Assembly (NCBI RefSeq): GCF_900184225.1
Contig: NZ_FXWZ01000003.1
Coordinates: 62,001 to 126,000 of the forward strand
Direction of reading: 5' to 3'
DNA: 64,000 nt
Origin: Brevibacterium ihuae
GTDB taxonomy: Bacteria; Actinomycetota; Actinomycetes; Actinomycetales; Brevibacteriaceae
The translations under genes and the position numbers were made by a program. Below the pieces are notes generated by a model that saw only the letters and a program-made list of their open reading frames with translations, was not told the DNA's origin and did no database searches. The first letter of the stretch is position 1, and each line of letters opens with the position of its first letter. Below are positions 22,558-61,720 of this stretch, piece by piece.

Positions 22558-22607
22558 GTGACATCCCACACCCGATTGGCTAGATTCGACCTCACCGAAC
22601 GTTCACT
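22558..22607 (+). promoter_or_regulatory. Promoter/operator of the first acyl-CoA ligase gene
   Basis: GTGACA (22558-22563), 17 bp, TAGATT (22581-22586), then ACCGAACGTTCACT (22594-22607). The core CGAACGTTC is shared, with identical spacing, with the promoter of the second ligase gene. Such palindromes placed just after the -10 are typical of TetR-family repressors of fatty-acid or aromatic catabolism; no regulator gene is in the window. Confidence 0.75.
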
Positions 22608-22637
22608 CGTGTTCAATGTCGCATCCGAGGAGACCCC

Positions 22638-24206
22638 GTGACTTCTGCATCCGTCGAGGCCGCCGCTCTCGATCTCAGCCGTTCGCCGTCGATGGTCGGG
22701 AAGCTCCTGCGCCATGCGCACGAGATCCCCGACGCTCCGGCGCTGCGCTACCGGGGCACGGAGACGAGCTGGCGCGAGTACGCGGACTCCGCCCTCCGCC
22801 TCGCCGCCGACCTCCGCTCCCGCGGCGTGGGCCGCGACGACCGGGTCGCCGTGCTCACCACCAACCGGCCGGAGTTCATCCTCGTCACCGCGGCCACCGC
22901 CGCGCTCGGCGCGATCATCGTGCCGATCAACTTCCGGCTCACCGCGGCCGAGGTCGCCTACATCGTCGACAACACCACCCCTGCGCTGCTCGTCACCGAG
23001 CCGGACACGCTCGACCTCGTGCACGGCGCGCTCGGCGAATCCACCGCGCAGCCGGTCGTCATCGACTGCGCCTCCGAAGAGTTCCTCCGCGCGACGGGCG
23101 AGGGGGACCCGCTCGCGGTCGACGAGATCGTCGTGCCCGCCGGCTCCGACGACTACGTCATCCTCCACACCTCGGGCACCACCGGGCACCCCAAGGGCGC
23201 GGTCCTCACCTGCCACACCGTGTAGTCCGCCTCGGTGCAGAACGCGGCGCGCTGGGGCGCCGAGGCCGGTTCCGGCGTCGTCATGCTCGCCCCGCCCCTC
23301 TTCCACATCGGCTCCTTCATGTCGGCGCACGGGGCGCTCGCCGGGGGTGCGGCCGCCCTCGTCATCCCGAGCGCAGGGTTCGACGCCGGCGAGACGCTGG
23401 CACGGATGAAGGAGAACCAGGTGACGGCGTCCTTCATGGTCCCCCAGCAGTGGCACCTGCTGTGCGACGAGATCGAGCGCTCCGGCGGCGACGGGCTCGC
23501 GATCACCCACGTCAACTGGGGCGGTGCGCCGGCGAGCGAGAAACTCCTCCTCCGGATGGCCGAATGCATGCCCGAGGCGGCGATCACCGCGGTGTTCGGC
23601 CAGACCGAGACCACCGGCACCGCGATGAGCCTGCGGTTCGAGGACTCCCTGCGCAAGATCGGCTCGGTCGGCCACCCGACCGCGGAGACCTCGATCCGGG
23701 TGGTCGACCCGGAGATGAACGACGTCGGCGTCGACGAGGTCGGCGAGATCGTCTACCGGGGCCCGTGCGTCATGGACCGGTACTGGAACAACGAGAAGGC
23801 CACCGCCGAGGCGTTCCACGGCGGCTGGTTCCACTCCGGCGACCTCGTGCGCCGGGACGCCGAAGGGTTCATCTACGTCGTCGACCGGCTCAAGGACATG
23901 ATCATCTCCGGCGGCGAGAACATCTACTGCGCCGAGATCGAGAACGCGCTCACCTGGCACCCGCAGGTGTCCGAGGTGAGCATCGTCGGCAGGCCCGACG
24001 AGAAGTGGGGCGAGGTGCCGGTCGCCTGCATCGTCCCCAAGGACCCCGACAACCCGCCGGACCTCGCGTCCGTGCGCGAGTACCTCCGCGATCGCCTCGC
24101 CTCGTACAAGCACCCCAAGGAGGTGCGGATCCTCGAGGCGTTCCCGCGCTCGGGCATGGGCAAGATCCAGTAGACCGTCCTGCGCGACACCGTCCGCCCC
24201 GCCTGA
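22638..24206 (+). pseudogene. Acyl-CoA synthetase (AMP-forming) with two in-frame TAG codons
   Basis: One continuous frame of 522 codons homologous over its whole length to the ligase at 25580-27157, but interrupted by TAG at 23223-23225 and 24171-24173. The first stop falls where the paralogue has phenylalanine, 28 residues after the ATP-binding signature TSGTTGHPKGAV. The second replaces the lysine after GKIQ, which in this superfamily is the adenylation-step lysine region. All other motifs (GQTETTG, YWNNEKAT, SGDLV, KDMIISGGENIY) are intact and there is no frameshift. The GTG start has GAGGAGA upstream. Either a recent pseudogene, sequencing error, or, much less likely, recoding. Confidence 0.8.
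23688..24019 (+). repeat. 332-bp tract identical to 26627-26958
   Basis: Base-for-base identity with the second ligase gene over 332 bp, flanked by clearly diverged sequence on the left and scattered differences on the right. It encodes the hinge and the start of the C-terminal domain. Looks like a gene-conversion tract or an assembly collapse. Confidence 0.85.
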
Positions 24207-24295
24207 TCGGCCCCGCGGCCGGGGCATCCGGGATCCGGCCGCCGCGTGTGTGGCACAATCGTCCCCGTCCGCTCCCCTACCCTGCAGGAGTTCGC

Positions 24296-25531
24296 GTGGT
24301 CGATGCCCCGACCGTGGCCCGTCGGCTCGCACCCGACGGTCGGAATCTCGGCATCGACACCGCCCGGGGCCTGGCGCTGTTCGGGATGATGATCACGCAC
24401 ATCATCGCCTTCACCGCCGAGGACGGCTCCTTCACCCGGGCGGTGTGGTTCGCCGGTCGCTCCTCTGCCCTGTTCGCGGTGCTCGCCGGTTTCTCCGTGG
24501 TCCTGAGCACCCGGCGCGTCCTCGCCCGCCCGGGCGGCCGGGCGTGGGCGGCGGCCGCCTCGGGGCTCGTGCTCCGCGGCATCATCATCGGCGTCATCGG
24601 CCTGCTGCTCGGCCTCGTCAGCTCGAGCATCGCGATCATCCTGACGTTCTACGGCGTGATGTTCGTGCTCGCGCCGCTCTTCCTCCGCCTCCCGCCCCTC
24701 GCCCTCGGCCTCCTCGCGCCCCTGTGGCTGACCCTCGTCCCGGTGCTGAGCATGGTCGTGCGCCGGGAGTTCGGACTCGAGACCTCGTACATCGTCCCGA
24801 CCCCCGGCGATCTCGTCACCCCGGGGCCGCTGCTCACCGACCTGCTGCTCACCGGGTACTACCCGGTGGTGCCCTGGATGGGCTACCTCATCCTCGGGAT
24901 GTTCCTCGCGCGGCTCGACTGGCGCGCGCCGCGCACGGCGATCACCGCGCAGCTCATCGGCCTCGGCACCGCCGTGCTCGCCAAGGCGGTCTCCTCGCTG
25001 CTCCTCACCGCCGGCGGCCGGAGCGCCCTCGAGGCGACCCTCGGACCGGTGCCCGCCGGCGAACCGGGATCGCTCGAGCACACGCTGACCACCGGCTCGT
25101 ACGGGATCACCCCGCCCGACTCGTGGTGGTGGCTCGCCACCGCCGGGCCGCACTCGGCCACCCCGTTCGACCTCCTCCACACCGCCGGTCTCGCGGCCGC
25201 GGTGCTCGGCGTGTGCTCGCTCGCCGCGATCGTCCTCGGAGAGCGGGCGTGGCTGCTCGCTCCGCTCAGCGCGCCCGGATCCATGCCGCTGAGCGTCTAC
25301 ACCGGTCACGTCGTGTTCCTCGAGATCAGCCGGCTCGCACCCATCCGATCGCTCGTCGAGCTCATGATCCACGTCGGCCTCGCCGTGCTCTTCGCCCTGC
25401 TGTGGCGGGGATTCGCCTCCCCGCGCGGGCCTCTCGAATGGCCCGTGTCCTCGGCGGTGCGCGCGGTGCAGCGGCGCGTGCTCGGAGATTCCCGCCCGAC
25501 ACCCGGTGACACGCGCGACCCGGTCCGTTAG
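24296..25531 (+). CDS. Membrane protein of DUF418/heparan-alpha-glucosaminide acetyltransferase-like type
   Basis: A 411-residue protein with about ten hydrophobic segments. The start RNLGIDTARGLALFGMMITH resembles the RGLALLGM-x-H motif of YeiB/DUF418 and HGSNAT-like acyltransferases, and the end LSVYTGHVVFLEI matches the DUF418 C-terminal pattern. These proteins probably transfer acyl groups across the membrane, but no substrate is known. The GTG start at 24296 has AGGAG five bases upstream. Its TAG stop lies inside the -10 of the next gene's promoter. It sits between two acyl-CoA ligase genes on the same strand; a functional link is plausible but unproven. Confidence 0.75.
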   Translation: MVDAPTVARRLAPDGRNLGIDTARGLALFGMMITHIIAFTAEDGSFTRAVWFAGRSSALFAVLAGFSVVLSTRRVLARPGGRAWAAAASGLVLRGIIIGVIGLLLGLVSSSIAIILTFYGVMFVLAPLFLRLPPLALGLLAPLWLTLVPVLSMVVRREFGLETSYIVPTPGDLVTPGPLLTDLLLTGYYPVVPWMGYLILGMFLARLDWRAPRTAITAQLIGLGTAVLAKAVSSLLLTAGGRSALEATLGPVPAGEPGSLEHTLTTGSYGITPPDSWWWLATAGPHSATPFDLLHTAGLAAAVLGVCSLAAIVLGERAWLLAPLSAPGSMPLSVYTGHVVFLEISRLAPIRSLVELMIHVGLAVLFALLWRGFASPRGPLEWPVSSAVRAVQRRVLGDSRPTPGDTRDPVR

Positions 25532-25555
25532 ATTCGTGGTGACCGAACGTTCGGT
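25506..25555 (+). promoter_or_regulatory. Promoter/operator of the second acyl-CoA ligase gene
   Basis: GTGACA (25506-25511), 17 bp, TAGATT (25529-25534), then the perfect palindrome ACCGAACGTTCGGT (25542-25555). Architecture and spacing equal those at 22558-22607; here the palindrome is complete, so this is probably the stronger operator. A GGTGACC-type flank extends the site imperfectly on both sides. Confidence 0.8.
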
Positions 25556-25579
25556 GACCATTAAGGAGAGACGTCGACG

Positions 25580-27157
25580 ATGACATCCGCAGACCAGGCA
25601 GCCCTCGCATTCAGCCGCTCCGTATCGGTGGTCGCCAAGATCTTCCGACATGCCCATGAGGTGCCCGACGCCATCGCCATGAGCTTCCGCGGAGAGGACA
25701 TCACGTGGGAGCAGTTCGCGGCGCAGATCCGCCGCGCGGCGGCCGATCTGCGGGCGCGCGGGGTGGGCCGCGGGGACCGCGTGGCGGTCCTGCTGACCAA
25801 TCGTCCCGAGTTCCTCGTCCTCACCCAGGCCGCCTCCGCGATCGGGGCGATCATCGTCCCCATCAACTTCTGGCTCACCGCCGGCGAGGTCGCCTTCATC
25901 GTCGACAACGTCACCCCGACGATGCTGTTCGTCGAGTCCCAGGTCGCCGAGCTCAGCGCCCGCGCCGTCGACCAGGCGGCGGCCGAGCCGCAGATCGTCG
26001 ACTGCGACGCGGTCGATCTCCTCGATCTCACGGACCCGGACCGCGCGGAGCTCGCGGCGACCGATCTCGTGGTCCCCGCGGCGGACGACGACTTCGCGAT
26101 CATGCACACCTCGGGCACCACCGGCAATCCCAAGGGCGCGGTGATCTCGCACTCGAACATCTTCGCGTGCTCGACCCAGGTGGCGAACCGGTGGGGCATC
26201 CGGAGCGGACGGGGCGTCGTCATGCTCGCCCCTCCCCTGTTCCACATCGGGACCTTCCTCGGTTGCCACGGTGCGCTCGCCGGGGGCGGCACCGCGCTCG
26301 TCGTGCCGAGCGCGGGGTTCGACGCGGGCGAGACGCTCGCGACGATGAAGCGGTTCGCGGTGACGGCGGCATTCATGGTGCCCCAGCAGTGGCAGCTCCT
26401 GTGCGCGGAGATCGAGCGCTCCGGCGGCGACGGGCTGGCGATCACCCACGTCAACTGGGGCGGCGCGCCGGCGAGGGAGAAGCTCCTCGAGCGGATGAAG
26501 GACTCGATGCCCGGGGCCGAGGTCAAGGCCTCGTTCGGACAGACCGAGACGACCGGCTACGGCGTCGGCCTCGAGTTCGAGGACTCCCTACGGAAGATCG
26601 GCTCCGTGGGCAAGCCCATGGACGACACCTCGATCCGGGTGGTCGACCCGGAGATGAACGACGTCGGCGTCGACGAGGTCGGCGAGATCGTCTACCGGGG
26701 CCCGTGCGTCATGGACCGGTACTGGAACAACGAGAAGGCCACCGCCGAGGCGTTCCACGGCGGCTGGTTCCACTCCGGCGACCTCGTGCGCCGGGACGCC
26801 GAAGGGTTCATCTACGTCGTCGACCGGCTCAAGGACATGATCATCTCCGGCGGCGAGAACATCTACTGCGCCGAGATCGAGAACGCGCTCACCTGGCACC
26901 CGCAGGTGTCCGAGGTGAGCATCGTCGGCAGGCCCGACGAGAAGTGGGGCGAGGTGCCCGTCGCCTGCATCGTCCCCAAGGACCCGGACAACCCGCCTGA
27001 CCTCGCGTCCGTGAGGGAGTACCTCGCCGACCGGCTGGCGAACTACAAGCATCCCAAGGGCGTGGAGATCCTCGACACCTTCCCGCGCTCGGGGATCGGC
27101 AAGATCCAGAAGACCGTGCTCCGCGACCAGGTCCAGCGGCCCGACGCCGCGGGCTGA
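25580..27157 (+). CDS. Acyl-CoA synthetase (AMP-forming)
   Basis: A 525-residue ANL-superfamily ligase that activates a carboxylic acid to its CoA thioester through an acyl-adenylate. Motifs: A3 P-loop TSGTTGNPKGAV, A5 FGQTETTGYG, A7 HSGDLV, A8 DRLKDMIISGGENIY, and the A10 lysine in GKIQKTVLRD. Substrate is not predictable from sequence; it resembles FadD13/long- and medium-chain ligases. ATG 25580 follows AAGGAGAG. It is the intact paralogue of the gene at 22638 and shares with it a promoter/operator and a 332-bp identical tract. Confidence 0.92.
   Translation: MTSADQAALAFSRSVSVVAKIFRHAHEVPDAIAMSFRGEDITWEQFAAQIRRAAADLRARGVGRGDRVAVLLTNRPEFLVLTQAASAIGAIIVPINFWLTAGEVAFIVDNVTPTMLFVESQVAELSARAVDQAAAEPQIVDCDAVDLLDLTDPDRAELAATDLVVPAADDDFAIMHTSGTTGNPKGAVISHSNIFACSTQVANRWGIRSGRGVVMLAPPLFHIGTFLGCHGALAGGGTALVVPSAGFDAGETLATMKRFAVTAAFMVPQQWQLLCAEIERSGGDGLAITHVNWGGAPAREKLLERMKDSMPGAEVKASFGQTETTGYGVGLEFEDSLRKIGSVGKPMDDTSIRVVDPEMNDVGVDEVGEIVYRGPCVMDRYWNNEKATAEAFHGGWFHSGDLVRRDAEGFIYVVDRLKDMIISGGENIYCAEIENALTWHPQVSEVSIVGRPDEKWGEVPVACIVPKDPDNPPDLASVREYLADRLANYKHPKGVEILDTFPRSGIGKIQKTVLRDQVQRPDAAG
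26627..26958 (+). repeat. 332-bp tract identical to 23688-24019
   Basis: Second copy of the identical segment; constant offset of 2939 bp. The first mismatch on the right is at 26959. Confidence 0.85.
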
Positions 27158-60376: not shown

Positions 60377-61629
60377 CGGTCGACGAGCTCTCGGGCATGG
60401 GCGCGGGCGGCGGCGTCCGCGGCGAGCACGGTCTCGAGGGTGAGCTCGGATTCGGCCCGGTCGGCGCCGGGCACGGACTGCGCGCCGTCGCCGGTGAGAG
60501 AGTCGAGCGCGGCGGCGATCCCGTCGCCGATCTGCCCGAACGTGATCCGGCCGGCGTGGAAGGCGTCGACGAGGACTTCGTTCGCGGCGTTGTACACCGC
60601 CGGCGCGGTGCCGCCGTGGCGACCGGCCCGGTACGCGAGGTCGAGGGCGGGGAACGCCTCCCGGTCCACCGGCTCGAAGGTCCACGTCGTCGGCGAGGTC
60701 CAGTCGTTGGGCGCGGCGGCGCCGGGCACGCGCCGGGTCGCGCCGGAGCGATCGGTGCCGAGCGCGTAGGCGATCGGCAGCCGCATGTCCGGGGGCGACA
60801 CCTGGGCGAGCGTCGAGCCGTCGACGTACTCGACCATCGAATGGATCTGGGACTGGGGGTGGACGACGACGTCGATCCGGTCGTAGTCGATGTCGAACAG
60901 GAGGTGTGCCTCGATGACCTCGAGACCTTTGTTGACGAGCGTTGCGGAGTTCGTCGTGATGACGGTGCCCATGTTCCACGTCGGGTGGACGAGCGCCTGG
61001 GCCGGGGTGACGGAGTCGAGCTCGGCCCGGCTCATCCCCCGGAACGGCCCGCCCGAGGCGGTGATGACGAGGCGGCGGACCTCATCCGCCCGGCCGGCGC
61101 GCAGCGCCTGCGCGATGGCGGAGTGCTCGCTGTCGACCGGGATGAGGCGCGCGCCGGTGCGCGCGGCGGCGGCGAGCACGACGGGGCCGCCGACGATGAG
61201 CGACTCCTTGTTCGCGAGCGCGACGTCCGTGCCGGCCTCGAGCGCGGCGAGCGTGCTCCGCAAACCGATCGCACCGGTCACCGCGTTGAGCACGACGTCG
61301 GCGTCGCCGGCGGCGATCCGCTCGCTCGCGGCGGGACCGAGCTCGATGTCCTCGACCCGGTTCGGCAGTCCGGTGCGGGCGGCCTCGGCGTCGAGGAGGC
61401 GGCGGATCTCCGCGGCATCGGCGTCCCCGGGGGCGGCGGCGCCGATCCGGCGGGCGCCCAGCCGCACGGCCTGCTCGACGAGCAGTCCGATGTTCGATCC
61501 GGCGGCGAGTGAGGTCACGGCGAAGCGATCGGGTTCGGCGAGCGCGACATCGACGGCCTGGGTGCCCACGGAACCGGTCGACCCGATTAGACTGATATGA
61601 CGAACGTTCACGCTGACCGATGATGTCAC
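60373..61629 (-). CDS. dxr: 1-deoxy-D-xylulose-5-phosphate reductoisomerase
   Basis: First committed enzyme of the MEP pathway. The 418-residue protein has the NADPH motif [37 protein letters not shown] with metal-binding residues, [17 protein letters not shown] and the C-terminal [25 protein letters not shown]. The start is uncertain. GTG 61629 is preferred because AAGGA lies five bases upstream; ATG 61668 and GTG 61611 are alternatives. The 5' end of the gene contains a CGAACGTTC site (see separate entry). Confidence 0.94.
61588..61609 (+). promoter_or_regulatory. CGAACGTTC site upstream of the glutaryl-CoA dehydrogenase gene
   Basis: CGAACGTTC at 61601-61609 is preceded by a possible -10 TAGACT (61588-61593) reading toward the dehydrogenase gene at 61721. 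It is the only occurrence of the palindrome outside the two ligase promoters. The site lies inside the 5' codons of dxr, so it could be coincidence. Confidence 0.35.
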
Positions 61630-61720
61630 TGAATCCTTAGAGGACAGTGAGGTCCCCTGCATCATCATCCGGGGTCAGATACGCGTTCCGACCACGATCG
61701 ACCACCAGAAAGAGACCGTG

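Follow-up and report, generated by a model that had tools for sequence, protein, structure and literature searches.

Predicted operators of a PfmR-like TetR regulon at two acyl-CoA ligase promoters of Brevibacterium ihuae

PfmR (TTHB023) is a TetR repressor of phenylacetate/fatty-acid metabolism in Thermus thermophilus HB8, with a solved structure (PDB entry 3VPR, confirmed here as PfmR) and a published operator consensus, (a/c)Y(g/t)A(A/C)YGryCR(g/t)T(c/a)R(g/t) (PMC7022988), and the phenylacetate repressor of the same organism is PaaR (TTHA0973; PMC6651687). Two further regulators partly resemble the system described below: KstR2 of mycobacteria shares the TetR fold, belongs to the same acyl-CoA-sensing group and represses CoA-dependent catabolism, but its operator, AnCAAGnnCTTGnT, has a different core (PMC3068626), and T. 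thermophilus FadR (TTHA0101) is a TetR repressor of fatty-acid degradation, but its operator, TTRNACYNRGTNYAA, does not match (PMC5597230). Literature searches revealed no such fatty-acid-breakdown regulon described for Brevibacterium. We propose, with a probability of about 0.7, that two sites found in B. ihuae belong as operators to a beta-oxidation regulon under the control of a PfmR-type TetR repressor, for which the protein L105 is the likeliest candidate. Fatty-acid breakdown in Brevibacterium would thus gain a named candidate regulator, a predicted operator and a target list, and the PfmR operator type would be extended from Thermus to an actinobacterium.

The stretch of DNA analysed (the window; 64,000 nucleotides) corresponds to positions 62001-126000 of contig 3 in a genome of 3.10 Mb with a G+C content of 71%. 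Orthologs were compared in G029, the closest species examined, and in G008. The two sites belong to the following features of the window:

22558..22586, + strand: promoter 1, read in the sequence (-35 GTGACA, 17-bp spacer, -10 TAGATT)
22590..22607, + strand: operator 1, CCTCACCGAACGTTCACT, 3 bp past the -10; weight-matrix score 17.8
22638..24203, + strand: fadD5-like acyl-CoA ligase gene 1, broken by in-frame TAG codons at two places
24250..25506, + strand: gene for a membrane-protein-like product, between the two ligases; G008 has a similar gene next to its ligase
25506..25534, + strand: promoter 2, read in the sequence (-35 GTGACA, 17-bp spacer, -10 TAGATT)
25537..25560, + strand: operator 2, a 24-bp imperfect inverted repeat, 92% complementary; weight-matrix score 18.8
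25580..27157, + strand: fadD5-like acyl-CoA ligase gene 2, intact, 525 aa; Pfam AMP-binding and AMP-binding_C

Read directly, both promoters consist of GTGACA, 17 bp, TAGATTCG, 5 bp and ACCGAACGTTC: GTGACA at 22558-22563, TAGATTCG at 22581-22588, ACCTC and ACCGAACGTTC at 22594-22604 in promoter 1, and GTGACA at 25506-25511, TAGATTCG at 25529-25536, TGGTG and ACCGAACGTTC at 25542-25552 in promoter 2. The identity of elements and spacings claimed in the first-pass annotation was confirmed base for base: all 25 element bases agree, and about 9 of the 22 spacer bases are alike (manual count). The ligases are 72% identical and lie one gene apart, as expected if the likeness of their promoters were simply inherited from a tandem duplication and the shared block were not a working operator; this is highly improbable, since the spacers and flanks have diverged around an unchanged element, and the same element also stands before genes that are not homologous to the ligases (hydratase, dehydrogenase, thiolase/SDR) and is kept in sister species. 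The ortholog of promoter 2 in G029 reads ATGACA-17-TAGATT, the layout TTGACc-17-TAGAcT recurs at further regulon promoters, and most of these promoters combine a TTGACA-like -35, 17 bp and TAGAYT with an operator that starts 3-16 bp past the -10. Thus, the spacing seen at the ligases is that of an ordinary housekeeping-type promoter followed by a downstream operator.

Ligase gene 1 is interrupted at 23223-23225 (codon 196) and 24171-24173 (codon 512), with no frameshift. Its ortholog in G029 has TTC and AAG at the two TAG positions and no internal stops, hence ligase 1 has probably become a pseudogene recently, or else its sequence contains an error, and amber read-through may be a further explanation of the TAG codons. 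The best NCBIfam model for ligase 2 is FadD5 (497 bits, under the model cut-off of 733 bits), and the gene at 24250-25506 has no match in Pfam or NCBIfam.

The 14-bp palindrome that had been pointed out at ligase 2, ACCGAACGTTCGGT (25542-25555, inside operator 2), is indeed perfect, but it is not the recurring unit: alignment of the genome sites with those upstream of the ligase orthologs of sister species yielded an 18-bp dyad, ACTGAACGNNCGTTCAGT. The 14-mer was rejected as the operator unit, being present in three other species only inside a permease coding sequence. Operator 2 holds two overlapping 18-bp registers (25538-25555 and 25542-25559). Operator 1, with an 8-bp core GAACGTTC and 2 mismatches to the 14-mer, is not a half-degraded copy, as had been suggested, but a single-register site that scores 17.8 vs 18.8 for operator 2, and the sister-species ortholog of ligase 1 has a related site upstream, as do the sister-species ligase orthologs in general.

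Comparison with the published consensus sequences suggests that the operator core belongs to a type already described and that the regulon would be a new, PfmR-like one; the first-pass annotation had known no described operator with this exact core, but PfmR and PaaR each have a consensus of the same type. The PfmR consensus admits CTGAACGNNCGTTCAG, the 16 bases at the centre of the dyad, at 16 of 16 positions, but operator 1 fits only 13 of the 16 consensus positions and operator 2 fits 14 (manual count). A genome search with the strict published pattern found neither window site, and the use of the consensus as an exact pattern was abandoned, as its 12 matches include several that are probably due to chance. 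The PaaR consensus, AACnAACGTTnGTT, matches the ligase-2 14-mer at 10 of 12 specified positions, and its alternative, CNAACGNNCGTTNG, shares the AACGNNCGTT core and has the same two-register ambiguity; PaaR, however, controls paa genes, and a closer homolog than PaaR was found here. In the stretches read, the sites have no paa cluster next to them, and the downstream genes are fadD5-like ligases, acyl-CoA dehydrogenases, enoyl-CoA hydratases and a thiolase/SDR pair. The exact operator strings were not found in the literature.

In the genome and in sister species, the dyad is carried by fadD5-like ligases, enoyl-CoA hydratases, acyl-CoA dehydrogenases and a thiolase/SDR pair, i.e. by fatty-acid degradation genes, as in a PfmR-type regulon. 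A genome search for the string CCGAACGTTC gave four places: both ligases, an enoyl-CoA hydratase promoter (C3:779138, with TAGACT 13 bp before) and one other. Further sites came from relaxed searches and from the neighbouring sequence:

C3:780244: acyl-CoA dehydrogenase site, ACTGAACGTTCGCTCAGT, score 28.5
C3:1672.8k: ligase site, score 26.0
C3:947.1k: ligase site, score 23.7
about C3:779137: enoyl-CoA hydratase site, score 22.4
C3:949k: site of a thiolase-like gene, score 21.6
C3:1336395: enoyl-CoA hydratase site, score 20.0
C3:1399.9k: acyl-CoA dehydrogenase site, score 18.9
thiolase/SDR divergent promoter: score 18.1

Both window operators are weaker than most of these predicted sites. Some of the sites listed had been used to train the weight matrix; those at C3:949k, C3:1399.9k, the thiolase/SDR promoter and ligase 2 were outside the training set, as was the site of the G029 hydratase ortholog, where CCTGAACGATTGTTCAGT is kept despite changed flanks (score 26.4).

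Motif counts would by themselves fit chance occurrence of GC-rich, CG-containing palindromes near promoters: the genome count of CCGAACGTTC (four) is about that expected from composition, and the total density of weight-matrix sites in an unbiased 464-kb sample of the genome, used as the background, equals the Markov expectation, so that single sites without context are not significant. The signal is carried only by position, neighbouring gene and conservation. Three of the four CCGAACGTTC places directly follow the TAGA(T/C)T -10 of a beta-oxidation gene, and in the sample a score of at least 17 is reached by three sites only, those of the two ligase promoters and one in an XRE-TetR gene promoter. 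In the stretches read elsewhere, which were not chosen at random, the strongest sites (20-28.5) lie upstream of beta-oxidation genes; the Markov rate for scores of at least 20 is about 0.5 per Mb. Together with the presence of the motif in all 30 readable upstream regions of L105 orthologs (see below), this makes chance barely credible as an explanation. Of the genome-wide search proposed in the first-pass annotation, in which random scatter was to count against the motif, it can be said that raw counts equal chance but that the sites found lie in beta-oxidation or TetR promoters far above it. Two other searches were set aside: a sequence-only covariance model held too little information for the whole genome (E-values about 0.2-1.3), and the -10 plus the perfect consensus, sought collection-wide, matched only once, in a Rokubacteria assembly ahead of a gene for a ferritin-like protein, which is uninformative.

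Among the 25 TetR genes of the genome, the best candidate for the regulator is L105 (C3:801452-802105), present in 56 of the 57 species of the genus set used for cross-species searches (57 genomes, 2.3-4.9 Mb). It heads a cluster of TetR, acyl-CoA dehydrogenase and SDR genes, in which the dehydrogenase is also preceded by a site. An operator-like site with a score of at least 11 is present in 30/30 readable upstream regions of L105 orthologs vs 3/43 for other TetR genes; at a score of at least 12 the orthologs retain 28/30, vs a mean of 0.4/30 in shuffles. L105 is therefore predicted to be autoregulated, through a site in its own promoter across orthologs; in B. ihuae this site, ACTTATTGATTGTTCGTT, is divergent and weak. 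The palindromic motif derived de novo from the L105-ortholog promoters, AtcGAACGATCGTTCgaT, learned without B. ihuae and its two nearest relatives, scores the beta-oxidation sites at 11.7-27 bits, and a motif of the same type reaches at least 14 bits once in 464 kb; motifs from shuffled or other-TetR promoters are unlike AtcGAACGATCGTTCgaT. The helix-turn-helix region is near-invariant in L105 orthologs down to about 50% identity. L105 is homologous to PfmR over its whole length: by sequence, its closest solved structure is 3VPR (phmmer E-value 6.9e-24, residues 6-188), and in a Foldseek search with its predicted fold (mean pLDDT 92.7) the top four matches are all chains of 3VPR (31-32% identity). 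The next structure matches after PfmR are KstR2, AibR with isovaleryl-CoA and FadR with stearoyl-CoA. The TetR repressor postulated earlier thus has a best candidate predicted from sequence, but a regulator dedicated to the two ligases gives way to one of a wider beta-oxidation regulon.

TetR genes with the same kind of site upstream, which had been named as a thing to look for, were found not only in the L105 orthologs but also at C2:39559 and at C3:365.5k. The latter gene (L106, minus strand) encodes a protein of 277 aa, in which an N-terminal Cro/C1-type HTH is fused to a complete PfmR-like TetR (TetR_N and TetR_C_24). The ligase promoters might then carry the same kind of operator and be read by one of these paralogs, with overlapping specificity. 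Under the regulator-derived motif, the scores of the window sites are no higher than 11.7 and 8.5, a level that the background reaches about 8-16 times per 464 kb, so a paralog could act there; moreover, the XRE-TetR by sequence also stands closest to PfmR and is kept in G029 (L136), with a degenerate site at the same place upstream, and the C2:39559 site is also present in G029. Against this, orthologs of C2:39559 beyond the closest species lack the site, and the gene was detected in only 27 of the 57 species. We consider control by a paralog unlikely, and L105 most likely to be the regulator at the two window promoters.

By analogy with PfmR, KstR2, FadR and AibR, which suggest the binding, the repression and the ligand, a dimer of L105 would bind the dyad some 3-16 bp past the -10 and there cover the transcription start, so that initiation or promoter escape would be blocked at an otherwise ordinary housekeeping-type promoter. 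Without fatty acids, it would shut the ligase, dehydrogenase, hydratase and thiolase promoters as well as its own; an acyl-CoA formed from fatty acids, a plausible inducer, would free the repressor, and the ligase, dehydrogenase, hydratase and thiolase genes would be induced together. In both this system and that of PfmR, an acyl-CoA dehydrogenase gene and an SDR come after the TetR gene, the sites overlap core promoter elements, and the targets include acyl-CoA ligase, thiolase and SDR genes. They differ in that the proteins share 32% identity across phyla and in that the B. ihuae regulon is scattered over the chromosome, whereas that of PfmR lies mostly in one operon.

Several sites (L226, L231, L026:8134-8155 and 25538-25559 of the window) contain two 18-bp registers that overlap with an offset of 4 bp, which may correspond to paired dimers or merely to the internal 4-bp CG periodicity of the motif. 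In a reading that seems quite unlikely, the dyad is functionally double: its two registers, as present at 25537-25560, in the hydratase site and in several autoregulatory sites, would let a pair of dimers, or a pair of different TetR paralogs with the XRE-TetR fusion among them, compete for one operator and so tune the fatty-acid genes. When the TT or AA centre is read in either register, 4 bp apart, the remainder is CGAACGTTC, the sequence of a doubtful third site of the window:

61595..61612, + strand: CGAACGTTC after TAGACT, upstream of an acyl-CoA dehydrogenase gene at 61718

Its weight-matrix score is just 4.9, and its core is altered in G029 and gone in G008, for which reason it was dropped as a firm member of the regulon. 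Beside it, between dxr and the dehydrogenase gene (about 61611-61655), there are some 40 bases (GCTGACCGATGATGTCACTGAATCCTTAGAG...), without an Rfam match at the gathering threshold, that are nearly constant in G029 and G008, with flanks that differ.

The comparison with G029 also revealed four TetR proteins that are 100% identical in the two species (L112/L140, L114/L141, L120/L147 and L127/L151), while several other orthologous TetRs are 81-89% identical. The upstream 150 bp are identical for three of the four and nearly so for the fourth, and the identity of the four proteins suggests a recent exchange of segments between B. ihuae and G029.
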